A DNA stretch of 35,111 nt from Chloroflexaceae bacterium (GTDB lineage Bacteria > Chloroflexota > Chloroflexia > Chloroflexales > Chloroflexaceae): NCBI GenBank assembly GCA_012033195.1, contig JAAUSQ010000014.1:1-35111 (forward strand), read 5' to 3'. Under the pieces are notes generated by a model, which had not been told where the DNA came from, searched no databases, and saw only the letters and a list, made by a program, of their open reading frames with translations. Below are positions 18,499 to 28,905 of the stretch, one piece after another (the first letter of the stretch is position 1; each line of letters opens with the position of its first letter). Both the position numbers and the translations under genes were made by a program.

Positions 18499-19098
18499 TT
18501 ACTTCAGCAGTCGCCAACCACCCGGCAGCGCTACCGCCGCCAGAACGATCTTGATTGCGTCACCAATCAGGAAGGGCAGTACACCCGCCGTGAATGCTGT
18601 TGCCACGCCCATACCCAGCCCAAATGCTAGCCAGCCTGCACCAAGCGTGTAGATAACAACATTACCGAGTACCATTCCCAGGGCAGTCTTCCAGATACTG
18701 CGATCCCAGCCCCGCTCGGCCAGCCAGCCCATCAGCGCGGCGGCGATGGGGAACGAGGCCAGATAGCCCGCTGTGGCACCCTGCCAGATTTCAATGCCGC
18801 TGCTGCCACCAGTATAAACGGGCAAGCCGATCAGACCAAGCAGCAGATAAAACAGCAGCGAGCCTCCGCCCAAGCGCGAACCGAGCAAGCCACCAACTAG
18901 TAGCACACCGAGCGTCTGCCCGGTGATAGGCACCGGGGTGAATGGTAGTGGAATACGGATCTGGGCGGTGAGCGCCACAAACAGCGCACCTGCCACGACC
19001 AGCACGGCGTTCCGAACGTGAACATTGGCAAGCCAGCGCTCACGGGGCAGCAAGCGCTGCGCGAGCGTGTCCGTCGAAGGGGTTCCAATGATCGACAT
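18499..19098 (-). CDS. bioY: BioY, biotin-specific S component of an ECF transporter
   Basis: This 199-residue membrane protein with about six hydrophobic helices has the BioY blocks: FVALTAQIRIPLPFTPVPIT near 40-60, GQTLGVLLVGGLLGSRLG next, GLIGLPVYTGGSSG near 88-101, GYLASFPIAAALMGWLAERG, and LPFLIGDAIKIVLAA at the end. BioY binds biotin and works alone or with EcfA/T energising subunits, none of which lie in the window. AAGGAGG is ideally placed before the ATG. It is 41 nt downstream of nurA on the same strand. I see no BirA operator or riboswitch, and its place in a NurA/translin string suggests constitutive expression (inference). Confidence 0.94.
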   Translation of the reverse strand: MSIIGTPSTDTLAQRLLPRERWLANVHVRNAVLVVAGALFVALTAQIRIPLPFTPVPITGQTLGVLLVGGLLGSRLGGGSLLFYLLLGLIGLPVYTGGSSGIEIWQGATAGYLASFPIAAALMGWLAERGWDRSIWKTALGMVLGNVVIYTLGAGWLAFGLGMGVATAFTAGVLPFLIGDAIKIVLAAVALPGGWRLLK

Positions 19099-19139: not shown

Positions 19140-20243
19140 TCAGCGCGGTGTGCGATACGGGCCGAGATATCGCTGCACCAGCGCGAGATCAAATTCGTTC
19201 TGCAAGGTTGTGCGGGCACCTTCGGCGGTCGCAGCCAGGGCGTGCTGCAACTGCCGACAAATCGCATCAGCCAGGAATTGCGGGAGTGGCTCCTGCACGG
19301 TGCTAATACGCAGCGCACTGCGAAAGGTTGCCAGCACTGCGCCGAGTGGTTCGCGGGCGATCAGGGCAGCGGGCAACTCGATGCGGTAGGCCGGGCCGAT
19401 AGCATCGGGGCGATAGTAGATGACATAAAACTGCCCATAGGCGTGTTCGATGGCTAGCCGATGCTCCTGGAAACTGGGCAGTGCGCCGCTGCGATAGCCC
19501 GTCAGCAGGTGGGGACGGTCGGCGCGGATGAGCGAGGTGGGCAGGCTGTACTCGCCAGCGTGCAGCACGTTGCTCCACAGCGAACGGTCGGTAATGGTGC
19601 CGCTGAGGTGCGGGGCCAGTGTGATGACATCATCGGCGGCGGTGGCCTGCTTGGAATGGGCAATCACGCGGCGGCATTCCAACACCAGTCGCCAGTCTTC
19701 ATCCGAGAAGAACGCATCGAGCAGCGGATAAAACCGTGACCACCAGCGCGGCGGGTTGTTGCCGCGATGATCCTGGGCGAAGCGTATCAGCAGGCGGTTG
19801 ATTTCGAGCAGCACTGAGTAGAACGAGCCATCGAGCACAAACAGGCCGCTGGTGGTGGTGCGGATGCGGCGGGCCAGCAGGCGCAGTTCGAGGATGCAGC
19901 GCAGCCCACCAATCAGGCTATCAAGCTCTTCGATGGGGGGCAACATCTGCACCAGCACTTCCTGGTCAGTCAGGGTGGCATCTTCCACGGCGGCGGCGGC
20001 AATGGCGGTAAAGGTGGCTCCGGCAGTTGGCACCGAGGCATGCGAGCCATCGACCGCGCATAGGCGGCGCTCTGGCCCATCGGGGGCGGGGCGAATGCGC
20101 TTGTCGAGAGCGGCACGCAAGCGGTCGTGCTCGTCTGCGAGGCGGCGCAACGTATCGCGGCACACGGCGGCACAGTCGGTGATGGCTGCCAGGACAGCGG
20201 CAGGCAACGCGGCGGTGCCCATGTTGGCAAGTGAGTCGCTCAT
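19140..20243 (-). CDS. nurA: NurA-domain 5'-3' nuclease
   Basis: This 367-residue protein shows the NurA pattern. An N-terminal CAVDGSHASVPTAGATF (about 63-79) carries the first metal-binding Asp, a central LFVLDGSFYSVLLEINRLL carries the second, and a C-terminal FYVIYYRPDAIGPAYRIELP follows. In archaea NurA pairs with the HerA helicase for resection of double-strand break ends; bacterial copies are less studied. ATG 20243 is used; a GTG two codons upstream is possible. It is 51 nt downstream of a translin gene and 41 nt upstream of bioY. HerA is not in the window. Confidence 0.85.
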   Translation of the reverse strand: MSDSLANMGTAALPAAVLAAITDCAAVCRDTLRRLADEHDRLRAALDKRIRPAPDGPERRLCAVDGSHASVPTAGATFTAIAAAAVEDATLTDQEVLVQMLPPIEELDSLIGGLRCILELRLLARRIRTTTSGLFVLDGSFYSVLLEINRLLIRFAQDHRGNNPPRWWSRFYPLLDAFFSDEDWRLVLECRRVIAHSKQATAADDVITLAPHLSGTITDRSLWSNVLHAGEYSLPTSLIRADRPHLLTGYRSGALPSFQEHRLAIEHAYGQFYVIYYRPDAIGPAYRIELPAALIAREPLGAVLATFRSALRISTVQEPLPQFLADAICRQLQHALAATAEGARTTLQNEFDLALVQRYLGPYRTPR

Positions 20244-20294
20244 TGGCACGATCCAGTGCTACGGGTGTTCTATGGCCTCGCTGCCATTATAGCA

Positions 20295-20942
20295 TCAAGT
20301 GGAAGATGCGGTGTCATCGTCAAGTTGCTGCTCGACCTTTGCCAGCGCGTGCATCAACCGATCCTGCCGAAGTGCGGTAGTCAGGTCGCCACGGGTGCGC
20401 TCTAATACGGCCCGCAGTGCGTCGGTGGCGCGGCGCAACCCGCCTGTAACTGCGTCGGGGTAGTCAACGGTGATCAGCAAACTGTAGACATCGTCCATGA
20501 TCGTGAGCAAATGTTCACTGGCCTCCAATTCATCGCGGCGCAATCGGTCGAGGATGGCGCGGCGCAGTTCGCTGGCGGCTTCACACAGCCCATTCAGGTA
20601 GGCGGCAGGCTCGACACCGAGCGCCTCCGGGGTGGGCAGTTGGCCATTGGTGAGGAATGCATACACCAGGGCCGCCTCGGCATATTCTTTCAGGGCATCC
20701 TGGGTATAGCCCGCGCCCAGCAGCAATGGCTGGTCGGCAACGGCGGCGCGCAAGGTGGCAACGATCATAGCAGCCTCGTTGAGCAAGGCCTGGGCTTCGG
20801 TGTACTGGGCACGGTGCGCGGCGCGGATGGTGTTGGCGCACTGACGCACCAGGCTACGCGACACAGTGAGCGCCTGCTCACGCGAGCCGTGTGCGGCATC
20901 AATCTGGGCAACACATGTGGCAACGACAGTTTCGATTGACAT
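20295..20942 (-). CDS. Prokaryotic translin-family protein
   Basis: This 215-residue all-helical protein matches the translin fold: REQALTVSRSLVRQCANTIR near 21-40, the KEYAEAALVYAFLTNGQLPT block near 85-104, YLNGLCEAASELRRAIL with the conserved Glu/Arg positions near 115-131, and the signature DYPDAVTGGLRRATDALRAV near 160-179 ending VLERTRGDLT. Eukaryotic translin and TRAX form the C3PO RNase; archaeal translin-like proteins are octameric nucleases. Activity here is inferred. It is the first gene of a minus-strand run translin-nurA-bioY. Only 42-48 nt separate it from the divergent LmbE gene, so the two promoters must overlap. Confidence 0.88.
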   Translation of the reverse strand: MSIETVVATCVAQIDAAHGSREQALTVSRSLVRQCANTIRAAHRAQYTEAQALLNEAAMIVATLRAAVADQPLLLGAGYTQDALKEYAEAALVYAFLTNGQLPTPEALGVEPAAYLNGLCEAASELRRAILDRLRRDELEASEHLLTIMDDVYSLLITVDYPDAVTGGLRRATDALRAVLERTRGDLTTALRQDRLMHALAKVEQQLDDDTASST

Positions 20943-20954
20943 GAGTAAAACCTC

Positions 20955-20983
20955 TGGACAGAAGCAAGAAAGCTGTGTACACT
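20955..20983 (+). promoter_or_regulatory. Promoter of the LmbE-like gene, predicting a leaderless mRNA
   Basis: TGGACA (20955-20960), a 17-nt spacer and TACACT (20978-20983) place the start of transcription at about 20990, essentially on the ATG at 20991. No Shine-Dalgarno precedes either ATG, which agrees. Confidence 0.5.
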
Positions 20984-20990
20984 AATGGCT

Positions 20991-21743
20991 ATGATACACC
21001 AGAATGAAATAGCATATGTCGTGCCAAAGCGGGTGCTGGTCGTTGTGGCGCATCCGGACGATATCGACTTTGGCGTTGCAGGCAGTGTCGCCCGCTGGGT
21101 GGGCGAAGGTGCCGAAGTAACCTACTGTATTATTACAAATGGTGCAGCCGGCAGCAACGACCCGGCAACCGACCTGCGGGAACTGGTACGGACCCGCGAA
21201 CAGGAACAACGAGCGGCGGCGGCGGTGGTGGGCGTGCGGGATGTGCGCTTCCTGGGGTATCAGGATGGGGTATTGCAGCCGACGCTGGAGCTACGCCGCG
21301 ACATTACCCGTATTATTCGGGAGGTGCAGCCCGACCGGGTGGTAACGCAGGACCCGACAACGGTCTTTGCAAGTGATAGTTACATCAACCACCCTGATCA
21401 TCGGGCAGCGGGTGAAGCAACACTATATGCGGTGTTTCCGAGTGCCGAAACGCGCCCGGTCTTTCCCGAACTGCTGGCAGAAGGATTGGAGCCGCACCAC
21501 GTGAATGAGCTGTATCTGAACCTGACGCTCAACCCAAATACGGCCATTGATATCTCGGAAGTGATTGACCGCAAGATGGAAGCATTGCTCTGCCACACAT
21601 CGCAGAATACCGCCGAAGCAGCCGATTGGCTGCGTGAGCGCAATGCAGAAGCCGGGAAAGCATATGACTACGCATACGCGGAAGTATTTCGGGTGATGCG
21701 TTTTATTCGGGGCCAGGAGGTAGACGAAGAGGCACTGAGCTAG
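20991..21743 (+). CDS. PIG-L/LmbE-family zinc deacetylase
   Basis: This 250-residue cytoplasmic protein contains the family's zinc motif AHPDD near residues 20-24, preceded by the beta-strand RVLVVV, and the third ligand region in NHPDHRAAGEATLYAVF near 130. Relatives remove N-acetyl groups from GlcNAc conjugates, as in mycothiol, bacillithiol and GPI synthesis, but many Chloroflexota paralogues have unknown substrates. I chose ATG 20991 over 20985 because the promoter at 20955-20983 would start the transcript there. It is divergent from the translin gene. A GC-rich hairpin just after the stop (21745-21765, no T-run) could end transcription. Confidence 0.9.
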   Translation: MIHQNEIAYVVPKRVLVVVAHPDDIDFGVAGSVARWVGEGAEVTYCIITNGAAGSNDPATDLRELVRTREQEQRAAAAVVGVRDVRFLGYQDGVLQPTLELRRDITRIIREVQPDRVVTQDPTTVFASDSYINHPDHRAAGEATLYAVFPSAETRPVFPELLAEGLEPHHVNELYLNLTLNPNTAIDISEVIDRKMEALLCHTSQNTAEAADWLRERNAEAGKAYDYAYAEVFRVMRFIRGQEVDEEALS

Positions 21744-22394: not shown

Positions 22395-23863
22395 ATGTCT
22401 CCACTTACTGCCAATCAGCAGCAGATGCTGGCTGATAACGCCTGGCTCCATTTTTGCCAGATGGGGAATTTTGTCAGTACCAATGCGCGGCCTCTTGTCC
22501 TCGTGCGCGGGGAGGGGTCGCGCCTGTGGGATCACGAGGGCCGTGAATATCTGGATGCCCTATCAGGTCTATTTACGGTCAATGTTGGTTACGGTCGCCA
22601 CGAGATTATCGATGCTATCGCCCAGCAACTCCAATCGATTGCGTTTGTTAGCCCCTTTGGTTTCCCAAGCCTCCCCCTGCTTGAACTGGCGGGGAAACTA
22701 GCGGCGATTGCGCCGACTGGCCCGGCTTCGCGCAGCTTCTTTGTCACCAGTGGCAGCGAGGCGGTTGAAGCAGCCTTGAAGATGGCAAAAGCCTATCAGC
22801 GCAAGCAAGGCTTCCCCGAACGGACCAAGGTTGTGGCGCGGCGTGGTTCGTACCACGTGTCACGATGGGCGCACTCTCGGCAACGGGCGTGCCCGAATAT
22901 CGCAAGGGCTTTGGCCCGCTGGTGCCTGGTGCACGCCACGTCCCACCACCCTACCCCTACCGCTGCCGTCACTGTGCACAGTGTAGCGCGTGTACGGGTG
23001 GCTGCGCCGACGATTTTGAAGAGATCCTCGAATTTGAAGACCCAACCACTGTGGCAGTTGTGATTATGGAGCCAGTACAGAACAGTGGCGGGGCACTCGT
23101 GACACCGCCGATCTATATTCAGCGGGTGCGCGAACTGTGCGACCACTACGGGATTGTGCTGGTTGCCGACGAGGTCATCAATGCGTTCGGGCGTGTTGGC
23201 GGGTGGTTTGGTTCGAGCGAGCTTGGGCTACGGCCCGATATTGTGACAGTGGCAAAAGGTATCACCAGTGGCTATGCGGCGCTCGGTGCGGTCATTGCCA
23301 GTAAGCAGATTGCGGATGCCTTCCTCGGTACCGATGACAACAAGTTTATGCACGGCAGTACCTTCGGCGGGCACGTCGGAAGCTGTGCTGCTGCATTAGC
23401 AACGCTGGGTATCCTTGAACGGGAACAGTTGCCCGAACGGTCGCGGCAGGTTGGCGCGTGGCTGCTGCAACGGCTGCGCGAGGTATTTGCTGATCACCCC
23501 AATGTGGGCGATGTGCGCGGCAAAGGCATGTTTATTGCGATTGAACTGGTGCGCGACCGCGAGACCCGCGAATCGCTCTCGCAGGAAGTCCAGCTTATGG
23601 AATGGCTGAGCGACCAGTTGTTGCAACATGGTTTGATCTGTCGGGCCGACGACCGGATGGAGCCAGTTATCCAGGTGGCTCCACCCCTGGTGATGACTAT
23701 GGAAGAGCTTGACCTGCTGGTGCATCGCCTCACAGATGTGCTGCATGTGCTTGGGCGTCGCCTCGATAGCGTGCCTGCCCGGTACGCTGCGGTGCCCCTG
23801 CCTGCGGCATCAGCGGTACCACCTGTCGCCACGCCTGCGCGTTCACCCTCTATTGCGGCATAA
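22395..23863 (+). CDS. Class III (PLP) aminotransferase, one frameshift
   Basis: Repaired, this is a 489-residue fold-type I omega-aminotransferase. It has SFFVTSGSEAVEAALKMA (PLP phosphate site) near 120, LVADEVINAFGRVG near 258 (PLP-pyridine Asp), the catalytic lysine in VTVAKGITSGYAALGA near 290, and HGSTFGGHVGSCAAAL near 320. The frame is lost at 22857, where GG is read as G; restoring it gives SYHGVTMGALSATGVPEYRKG. A five-cysteine loop CRHCAQCSACTGGC sits near residues 195-208, where relatives carry fewer cysteines. Substrates are probably an omega-amino acid or diamine with pyruvate or 2-oxoglutarate; not determinable. A perfect AAGGAGG stands before the ATG. A terminator follows at 23878-23912. 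Confidence 0.9.
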
Positions 23864-26158: not shown

Positions 26159-26404
26159 TGAGGCTGTACGGCTCTAACACCGTCGTGTGTGGAGAGACCG
26201 GGCAGCACCTTGTACTCGCCTCCCTGAACAAACGCACGTGACCGAATAGAGCCGCCAGATATTACAGGCAAGGTGTGCCTGCTCTGGAAGAGCCTGGAAC
26301 AGCGTTGTGCCAGTGCGACCATATCTGGGTGAACCGAACGCATATACCGACAATCCGGCTCTAGTGAATAATGGGATTCGGTATTGCTATCAACGGAGAG
26401 AATT

Positions 26405-28905
26405 ATGTCAGATCGACTGTATGACAAATTTACCAAACGGGCCAAGCAAGTCTTACAGCTTGCAACTGAAGAAGCCCGGTCCTTCAACCATCCGTATGTC
26501 GGGACGGAGCATATTTTGCTCGGCCTGATCCGCGAGAGCGAAGGGATTGCGGCACGGGTGCTGGATGATCTGGGGGTGAAGCTGACACAGGCTCGCAATG
26601 CCGTTGAATTCATTGTGGGCATTGGGGAAATTGCCTATCCTTCCGATCAGGAATTGACCGCCCGTGCGAAGAAAGTGATTGAGTATGCGATTGAGGAAGC
26701 CAAGCGTCTGAACCATCACTACATTGGCACCGAGCACCTGCTGCTTGGTCTGGTGCGGAATGGCGAGGGTGTGGCGACTGGTGTTCTTGATATTATGGGT
26801 GTTTCGCTGGAGCAAGTACGCAATCAAGTGATGCGGGTGTTGCGGCATGGCACGGCACCGGCTACGCCCGAACGCACCGCGACGACCCAGGCGCAGCGCC
26901 AGAGCAAGACACCGTATCTGGATGCGCTGGGCACTGACCTGACCGAAATGGCAGAGGCGGGTCGGCTCGACCCGGTGATCGGGCGTAAGCACGAGATTGA
27001 GCGTGTTATTCAGATTCTCTCGCGGCGCACCAAGAACAACCCGGCCCTAGTGGGCGAACCGGGGGTTGGCAAGACGGCGATTGTGGAAGGGTTGGCGCAG
27101 CGCATTGTACAGGGCGAAGTGCCCGATAGCATCAAGGGCAAGCGTGTTGTTGCCCTCGATATGGGCGCACTGGTTGCGGGCACCAAGTACCGTGGTCAGT
27201 TTGAGGAGCGCCTGAAGCGGGTGGTTGATGAGATTAAAGAAACCCGCTGTATTCTGTTCATTGACGAGTTTCATACCATCATTGGGGCAGGTGGGGCCGA
27301 GGGTACCCTCGATGCGGCCAACATCCTCAAGCCGGCGCTGAGCCGGGGCGAGTTGCAGACGATTGGCGCAACGACCTTGATGAGTATCGCAAATATATCG
27401 AGCGGGATGCCGCACTGGAGCGCCGCTTCCAGCCAGTGATGGTGGATGAGCCATCCATTGAAGATACTATTAGCATTTTGCGGGGCATCAAGAGCCGTTA
27501 CGAAGATTTCCATCAGTTGCAGATTAGCGACGATGCGCTGAAGTCTGCGGCGATTCTGTCGGCGCGGTATGTGCCCGACCGCTTCCTGCCCGATAAGGCG
27601 ATAGACCTGATTGACGAGGCGGCAAGCCGGGTACGCATGTATCGCTCGGCAACCCCGCCCAAGCTGCGCGATGCCCTGCGTGGGCTGGAAGCACTGCGCA
27701 AGGAGCGCGAAGCGGCTCAAGACGAAGACCAGCAAATGCTGGTGAACGACCTGCGTGACCGCGAGGAGCGCATGCAGCAGCGCATTGCCTCCATCGAGAG
27801 CGAGATGGGAACCAGTGCAAGCGAGCACTCGTTTGAGCGTCCGTATGTGACCGAGGAAGACATTGCCGAGGTGATCGGGATGTGGACGGGTATTCCTGTC
27901 ACGCGCTTGCGCGGCGACGAGACGGCTCGCCTGATGCATATGGAGTCGGCCCTGCACGAGCGCGTGATTGGTCAGGAAGAGGCTATCGTCACTATCTCGA
28001 AGGCCGTACGGCGTGCCCGCGCTGGTCTGAAAGACCCGAAGCGCCCGATTGGGAGCTTCATCTTCCTGGGGCCAACCGGTGTTGGTAAGACCGAACTGGC
28101 CAAGGCGCTGGCCGAGTTTATGTTCGGCTCGGAGAACTCGCTGATCAAGATCGATATGTCGGAGTTCCAGGAGCGCCACACAACCAGCCGTCTGGTTGGT
28201 TCGCCGCCCGGCTATGTCGGCTATGGCGAGGGTGGGCAGCTTACCGACGCGGTACGCCGCAAGCCCTATAGCGTGGTGCTGTTCGATGAGATTGAGAAGG
28301 CCCACCCCGAAGCGTTCAACCTGCTGTTGCAGGTGCTGGAAGATGGCAACCTGACCGATGGTAAGGGCCGCCGGGTGGACTTCCGCAATGCTATCATCAT
28401 TATGACCAGCAACATCGGTACCGAGCACATTCGCCGCGCCAGCCGGATCGGGTTTGGTGGGGCAATTGCCGAGATTGACGAAGATGATACCCGTCGCAAG
28501 GTGGAGGACTCGCTCAAGCAACTGTTCCGGCCTGAGTTCCTCAACCGTATTGATGCGACGATTATCTTCCACCCGTTGACGACGGAAGAAATTCGTGCGA
28601 TTTCCGAGTTGATGATCGACCGGGTGCAGGTACAGTTGCGCGACCACCAGATCGAACTGGAAGTCAAGTCGGATGCGCTCGACCTGCTCTCGCGCCGTGG
28701 CTACGACCCGGCCTTCGGTGCACGTCCGCTGCGCCGTATCATCACCAACCTGATCGAAGACCCGCTGGCGGAGGGCTTCCTGAATGGGCGCTTTACACGC
28801 GGCGATAAGGTGATTGTAGATACCGAAAACGACCTGCTGCGGCTGCGCTCGCTGCGCCAGATTGAGCAGGAAGAGCCTGAGTCGGCAAGTGCGGCGCTGG
28901 TCTAA
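26405..28905 (+). CDS. clpC: ClpC-type AAA+ unfoldase (Hsp100), one frameshift
   Basis: Repaired, this is an 833-residue double-ring ATPase that unfolds proteins for ClpP. It has two Clp_N repeats (about 1-145: [12 protein letters not shown] and [12 protein letters not shown]), AAA domain 1 with Walker A GEPGVGKT near 217 and Walker B CILFIDEF near 282, a medial coiled coil (about 425-465), and AAA domain 2 with Walker A GPTGVGKT near 556 and [15 protein letters not shown]. The frame is lost at 27379: ACCTTG|ATGAG should be ACCTTGGATGAG, giving the universal [12 protein letters not shown]. No base is missing elsewhere. GGAGAG precedes the ATG. There is no CtsR box or clear promoter in the 246 nt upstream. 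A strong stem-loop follows at 28935. Confidence 0.95.

Follow-up and report, generated by a model that had tools for sequence, protein, structure and literature searches.

A Trax-type translin gene repeatedly placed ahead of DNA nuclease genes in Chloroflexota

Roles in RNA turnover and in DNA recombination, the latter disputed, have long been ascribed to the translin of eukaryotes, and a 2012 study by Gupta et al. is said to deal with translin in eubacteria. In a Chloroflexaceae genome, a translin-family gene lies directly ahead of a gene with a NurA nuclease domain, which raises the question of whether the two products act together or are merely inherited neighbors. Here, we have examined the window that holds this locus (the whole stretch of 35,111 nucleotides, contig C124 of a 4.8-Mb genome in 430 contigs that is 86.9% complete) and compared it with related loci in the phylum. 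No link between translin and NurA was found in print by a full-text literature search, the coverage of which leaves most subscription papers outside. The features of the locus are as follows:

18499..19098, minus strand: bioY, 41 nt downstream of NurA3 (PF02632, 139 bits)
19140..20249, minus strand: NurA3, a divergent NurA-domain nuclease of 369 aa (367 from the ATG) with VDGS (D67), E121 and LDGS (D140)
20244..20294, minus strand: translin-NurA spacer, 51 nt from the translin stop to the NurA ATG at 20243
20295..20942, minus strand: translin superfamily protein of Trax/C3PO type, 215 aa, with carboxylates E86, E89, E121 and E125
20985..21743, plus strand: PIG-L (GlcNAc-PI de-N-acetylase family), upstream of translin in divergent orientation; synteny control

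An ORF and strand check together with Pfam confirmed the order translin, NurA-domain gene and bioY on the minus strand, at the coordinates that the first-pass annotation had given. The 51-nt gap that it had reported holds from the ATG and shrinks to 45 nt with the GTG at 20249 as the start. By simple scans, no terminator-like sites were found in the translin-NurA3 or NurA3-bioY intervals of the window, and the single promoter-like site (20955-20983, plus strand) was no more than shuffled sequences give. Elsewhere in the window, a clpC-like gene (region 26384-28905) was present as two overlapping ORFs (26384-27439 and 27436-28905), in place of which a relative (L109) has one 838-aa ORF; this split is a frameshift or an assembly error. 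An aminotransferase-like gene (22395-23863) was likewise split between two ORFs (22395-23063 and 22865-23863) that overlap and lie in different frames, which is likely a frameshift.

The Pfam translin model (PF01997) scored the window protein at 22.5 bits, below its cut-off of 25.9, and a Pfam search of the whole genome left the protein unmatched at E 0.001, a threshold at which the model matched 8 of the 14 translin members tested. This sub-cut-off score reflects the reach of the model, because the fold and the similarity to Trax of Archaeoglobus fulgidus (AfTrax) are clear. AfTrax was the nearest solved structure by sequence (3zc1, E 7.5e-19 by phmmer), and a search of the PDB with the AlphaFold model (pLDDT 93.7) returned A. 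fulgidus and Nanoarchaeum equitans C3PO first (best E 4.2e-08), followed by human, mouse, Drosophila and fungal translin or C3PO chains. The best NCBIfam model (PRK14562.1-5) carries the name 'haloacid dehalogenase superfamily protein', which is unsupported by structure.

The window protein and archaeal C3PO/Trax (3zc0 and 3zc1 of A. fulgidus; 5jr9, 5jrc and 5jre of N. equitans) have a common fold, with TM-scores of 0.73-0.79 on query length, and a common acidic quartet. On direct alignment, E86, E89, E121 and E125 face E, E, D and E of AfTrax, and each quartet position was Glu in 185 of 186 distinct rows, with one gap (213 translin rows were taken from the loci examined). In contrast with the archaeal proteins, the third carboxylate is therefore Glu, not Asp, throughout the Chloroflexota set. 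In entry 3zc0, a complex with RNA, the AfTrax chain has Ala in place of the corresponding Asp, in agreement with a catalytic mutant. Equivalence of the quartet to human Trax was drawn from motif spacing only: the E-x2-E and (D/E)-x3-E spacing is the same, and PMC9753400 gives the human catalytic residues as E126, E129, D193 and E197. On the basis of the C3PO-like fold and the conserved quartet, the window protein is therefore of Trax type and presumably catalytic, with a fixed Asp-to-Glu change and an activity predicted from sequence. The translin fold is also common to human and Drosophila C3PO (translin-Trax; 3pja, 3axj and 1key were among the structure matches), but, unlike these, the window's genome had one translin match only, and no separate non-catalytic paralogue was found in it. 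A single gene product is likewise present in the archaeal system, and the window protein is thus presumably a homo-oligomer; according to PMC9051087, N. equitans Trax degrades RNA by itself. The window protein differs from the archaeal ones in being bacterial and in being followed by DNA nuclease genes, whereas archaeal TRAX is reported in an operon context with SepRS (PMC5424206).

Bacterial translin had been called rare at the outset, which does not apply to Chloroflexota: translin was found in 222 of 400 genomes and 134 of 225 genera of the phylum, and is thus common, though under the haloacid dehalogenase name in NCBIfam. A mobile-element origin was rejected, as translin was unmatched in 72,556 plasmid and 50,697 phage records, and so was a defence system, translin and NurA3 having no PADLOC match. 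A motif search for translin fusions, run on seven loci selected for their long open frames, returned no match. One contig titled Candidatus Gracilibacteria (L130) has a Chloroflexales-type translin and the same size, 3133, as contig C215 of a genome from the window's family (G408); it is probably a mislabelled bin.

NurA3 was matched by the Pfam NurA model (PF09376) at 31.0 bits (cut-off 21), and the model matched all 13 members of the NurA3 subfamily at E 0.001. In profile-profile comparison (hhalign), NurA3 together with its closest relatives matched a set of 22 typical NurAs from Chloroflexota at 96-98% probability. D67 (VDGS), E121 and D140 (LDGS) were invariant in the 13 members, the equivalence of E121 to the NurA Glu resting on the profile alignment. 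With the HerA-NurA end-resection system of Deinococcus radiodurans and Saccharolobus, NurA3 shares the NurA domain and its acidic VDGS and LDGS motifs; D58 of S. solfataricus NurA is needed for exonuclease activity (PMC4641729). In contrast with that system, NurA3 has no linked HerA and its C-terminal motif appears to differ. In NurA3 this motif reads PLPQFLAD, close to the EPYPLYLAD found in NurA3 relatives, and is not in register with the AH/AD of typical NurAs, the C-terminal Asp lying two residues ahead of the typical His/Asp in an ungapped alignment. Identity to the genome's typical NurA was 19% in a MAFFT alignment of doubtful register. The NurA3 profile found no solved NurA relatives by sequence, and the AlphaFold model (pLDDT 42.5) was too poor for a structure search. 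As judged from its sequence, NurA3 is a divergent third NurA of the genome, in which two better NurA matches (C373:4552-5415 and C363:403-1275) and a HerA with HAS-barrel and DUF87 domains (C191:16879-17577) are present. The C363 copy carries an internal stop codon (TAA), and no two of these three genes are neighbors.

When the HerA of this genome was used as a tblastn query against the window and the loci examined at that stage, it matched its own locus only. HerA is thus missing from the window, as had been noted, and it was rejected as a local partner, since none lay beside NurA3 or translin in these loci. The argument that had been built on the missing usual partner is weak, because HerA and two more typical NurAs sit elsewhere in the genome.

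To see how often the two genes are linked, all 82 genomes of the order were surveyed: the strong form of NurA3 was found in 29, translin in 62 and both in 28. The NurA3 counts leave out G238, the 43-bit match of which is to another NurA, and a weak second match in each of G323 and G335. The pair was adjacent in 19 of the 28 genomes with both genes, representing 13 of 17 genera, and the linkage is therefore not a feature of this genome alone. In all 19, the genes were on the same strand with translin first; two of these cases rest on fragments at contig ends (NurA3 in G408, translin in G412). The gaps between matched regions were 37-487 nt; a separate promoter could fit into those above 300 nt (5 of 19). 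An overlap of the two frames is possible in L194 (G406), and in G330 the genes are separated by a 100-aa ORF that weakly matches DUF1232 (L070:3694-3996, minus strand). In the other nine genomes (G214, G409, G416, G323, G166, G432, G341, G335 and G424) the pair was apart, with a distance of ∼1.7 Mb in G166, which is a single contig. The linkage was broken in g5, the sister genus, and in g14, which is Roseiflexus-like; NurA3 of unlinked genomes lay among unrelated genes. Translin was present in 28 of 29 NurA3 genomes, compared with 62 of 82 across the order, and the one NurA3 genome in which it was absent (G380) is 99% complete. NurA3 was missing from 34 of the 62 translin genomes of the order, and no genome of g3 or g6 had it. 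A tree of NurA3 required 4 changes of the linked label against a shuffled mean of 8.4, with 1 of 500 shuffles as low, a pattern consistent with ancestral linkage that was lost on a few occasions.

Two further gene pairs, PIG-L with translin and bioY with NurA3, provided synteny controls. Close homologues of PIG-L were identified in 24 of the 28 genomes and lay at most 2 kb from translin in 12 of them (9 of 17 genera); NurA3 was linked to translin in 16 of the same 24. By comparison, of the 23 genomes that have bioY as well as NurA3, only 5 had the two side by side (4 of 13 genera), so this neighborhood is probably incidental. NurA3 was kept and PIG-L gone in seven genomes (G230, G330, G406, G407, G408, G412 and G413), four with at least 2.6 kb of flank and three too short in flank to be sure, whereas PIG-L was kept and NurA3 gone in three (G214, G409 and G424). 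The rate of PIG-L beside translin is thus not clearly lower than that of NurA3; the excess of NurA3 is small, though in the right direction, and synteny alone therefore stays a live rival.

Beyond the order, a different nuclease was found in the place of NurA3. The first set comprised 80 loci around close translin relatives, analyzed by neighbor clustering and iterated profile searches (translin called in 76 of 80). The second comprised 78 further loci outside the order, hand-picked among the matches listed with the aim of one per genus; its neighbor clustering called translin in 72 of 80. A split Cas4-like nuclease lay directly downstream of translin on the same strand in 29 of the 80 first-set loci, all within the 53 loci L131-L183, and followed translin in 7 of the 78 second-set loci, starting 1.7 kb away in L211. 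Besides L221, L225, L263 and more, examples from Anaerolineae and relatives include:

L136:6620-6889, plus strand: Cas4-like nuclease after translin
L140:4869-5741, plus strand: Cas4-like nuclease after translin

The first piece (∼85 aa) combines a hydrophobic stretch with the Cas4 N-terminal motif, and its start is often at the translin stop, overlapping it or only a few bases away. The second piece (∼175 aa) has a hydrophobic stretch, a GRPD..EVK core and C-terminal cysteines. Three of three second pieces tested were above the Pfam cut-offs for Cas4 and PDDEXK_1, and one of four first pieces tested matched Pfam Cas4, below cut-off. In L153, L158, L176 and L183, only the first piece was present, the second not being found in the 6 kb downstream. 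PADLOC matched the Cas4-like piece mainly to Cas4 models, with weaker Cas1-fusion and DruK matches. The N-terminal Cys motif, the core and the C-terminal cysteines are common to Cas4/PD-(D/E)XK exonucleases, from which the split nuclease differs in consisting of two small ORFs, each with a hydrophobic stretch, placed after translin. Across the phylum, the strong form of the second piece (about 180 bits or more, a hand count) was found in 85 of 400 genomes, 81 of which had translin, and adjoined translin in only 6; in the window's genome it is on C151, away from translin. Just upstream of translin, 15 of the 76 first-set loci with a called translin had SSB (PF00436) and 13 had DUF3467, both names coming from Pfam scans of second-set members; examples with SSB and DUF3467 are L257, L268, L221 and L205, and L144 and L173 in the first set. 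Elsewhere in the second set, translin was followed by a UbiA-family gene (14 of 72 loci) or an HppA-like gene (6 of 72, the HppA name being assigned from sequence). Nuclease linkage is therefore recurrent, but far from universal. Two unrelated nuclease families share the slot after translin, which is the strongest new lead of this analysis and makes a translin-nuclease partnership testable, as a proposal.

How much of the pairing needs a functional explanation? Inherited synteny would treat the pair as the surviving piece of an ancestral NurA3-translin-PIG-L block that decays by rearrangement. Since PIG-L is beside translin in half of the genomes that have it, even in the three from whose loci NurA3 has gone, such inheritance explains much of the pairing, and the few label changes on the tree imply few independent events; the unrelated surroundings of unlinked NurA3 genes point the same way. 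With linkage broken in 9 of 28 genomes and PIG-L, which has no evident link, retained this often, a functional tie is not required. On the other hand, the pair spans more genera than either PIG-L beside translin or bioY beside NurA3, its direction is uniform and nuclease genes follow translin elsewhere. Pure synteny is about as likely as a functional pair, and we would give it slightly less than an even chance. An operon for regulation only, in which a shared promoter (for example, a stress-induced one) would serve translin acting on RNA and NurA3 acting on DNA without contact, agrees with the common strand, the short spacers in many genomes and the window spacer free of terminator-like sites, but the shared promoter is presumed and the spacers above 300 nt argue against it; we consider it improbable. 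A wrong label for translin or NurA3 might be suspected from the low PF01997 score, the NCBIfam name and the absence from NurA3 of an AH/AD in register, but the AfTrax similarity, the confident model with C3PO as best matches, and the PF09376 and profile-profile results make such an error highly improbable, and for translin it is largely refuted.

The functional pair is plausible, if still tentative. It would be old and probably co-transcribed, dating from the common ancestor of the Chloroflexaceae (f1) and a second family, probably the Roseiflexaceae (f3); we infer both family names. Translin would form a homo-oligomeric barrel like archaeal C3PO, bind single-stranded nucleic acid and cut RNA, and NurA3 would be a metal-dependent DNA nuclease independent of a linked HerA. 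The two might share one step at exposed ends or RNA-DNA hybrids, where RNA would be cleared and DNA strands trimmed, translin keeping hold of single strands as NurA3 digests DNA. This proposal is favored by the linkage in 19 of 28 genomes with its uniform order, by a pair that outlasts PIG-L, by clustering on the tree, by translin in nearly all NurA3 genomes and by the different nucleases that other Chloroflexota place after translin. It is weakened by the nine broken cases, by G380, by the 34 translin genomes without NurA3, by the similar PIG-L rate, by the long gaps, by the unrelated genes, UbiA and HppA among them, that follow translin in other lineages, and by the poor NurA3 model and the failure to match a solved NurA by sequence. 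Thus, the suggestion of the first-pass annotation that the two proteins act together gains from the recurrence and uniform strand and order of the pair, but loses from its breakage and from the retention of PIG-L.

A broader and rather unlikely possibility is that the translin of Chloroflexota serves DNA exonucleases in general as an accessory factor, namely an RNase barrel that binds single strands. Its partner would be NurA3 in Chloroflexales, whereas in Anaerolineae and relatives it would act with the split, membrane-anchored Cas4-like nuclease together with SSB and DUF3467; a possible setting is DNA processing during uptake or repair. If true, the disputed role of eukaryotic translin in recombination would be tied to a bacterial nuclease partnership. 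The repeated position of a Trax-type translin ahead of DNA nuclease genes of two unrelated families offers candidate partners for this protein and simple tests of them.
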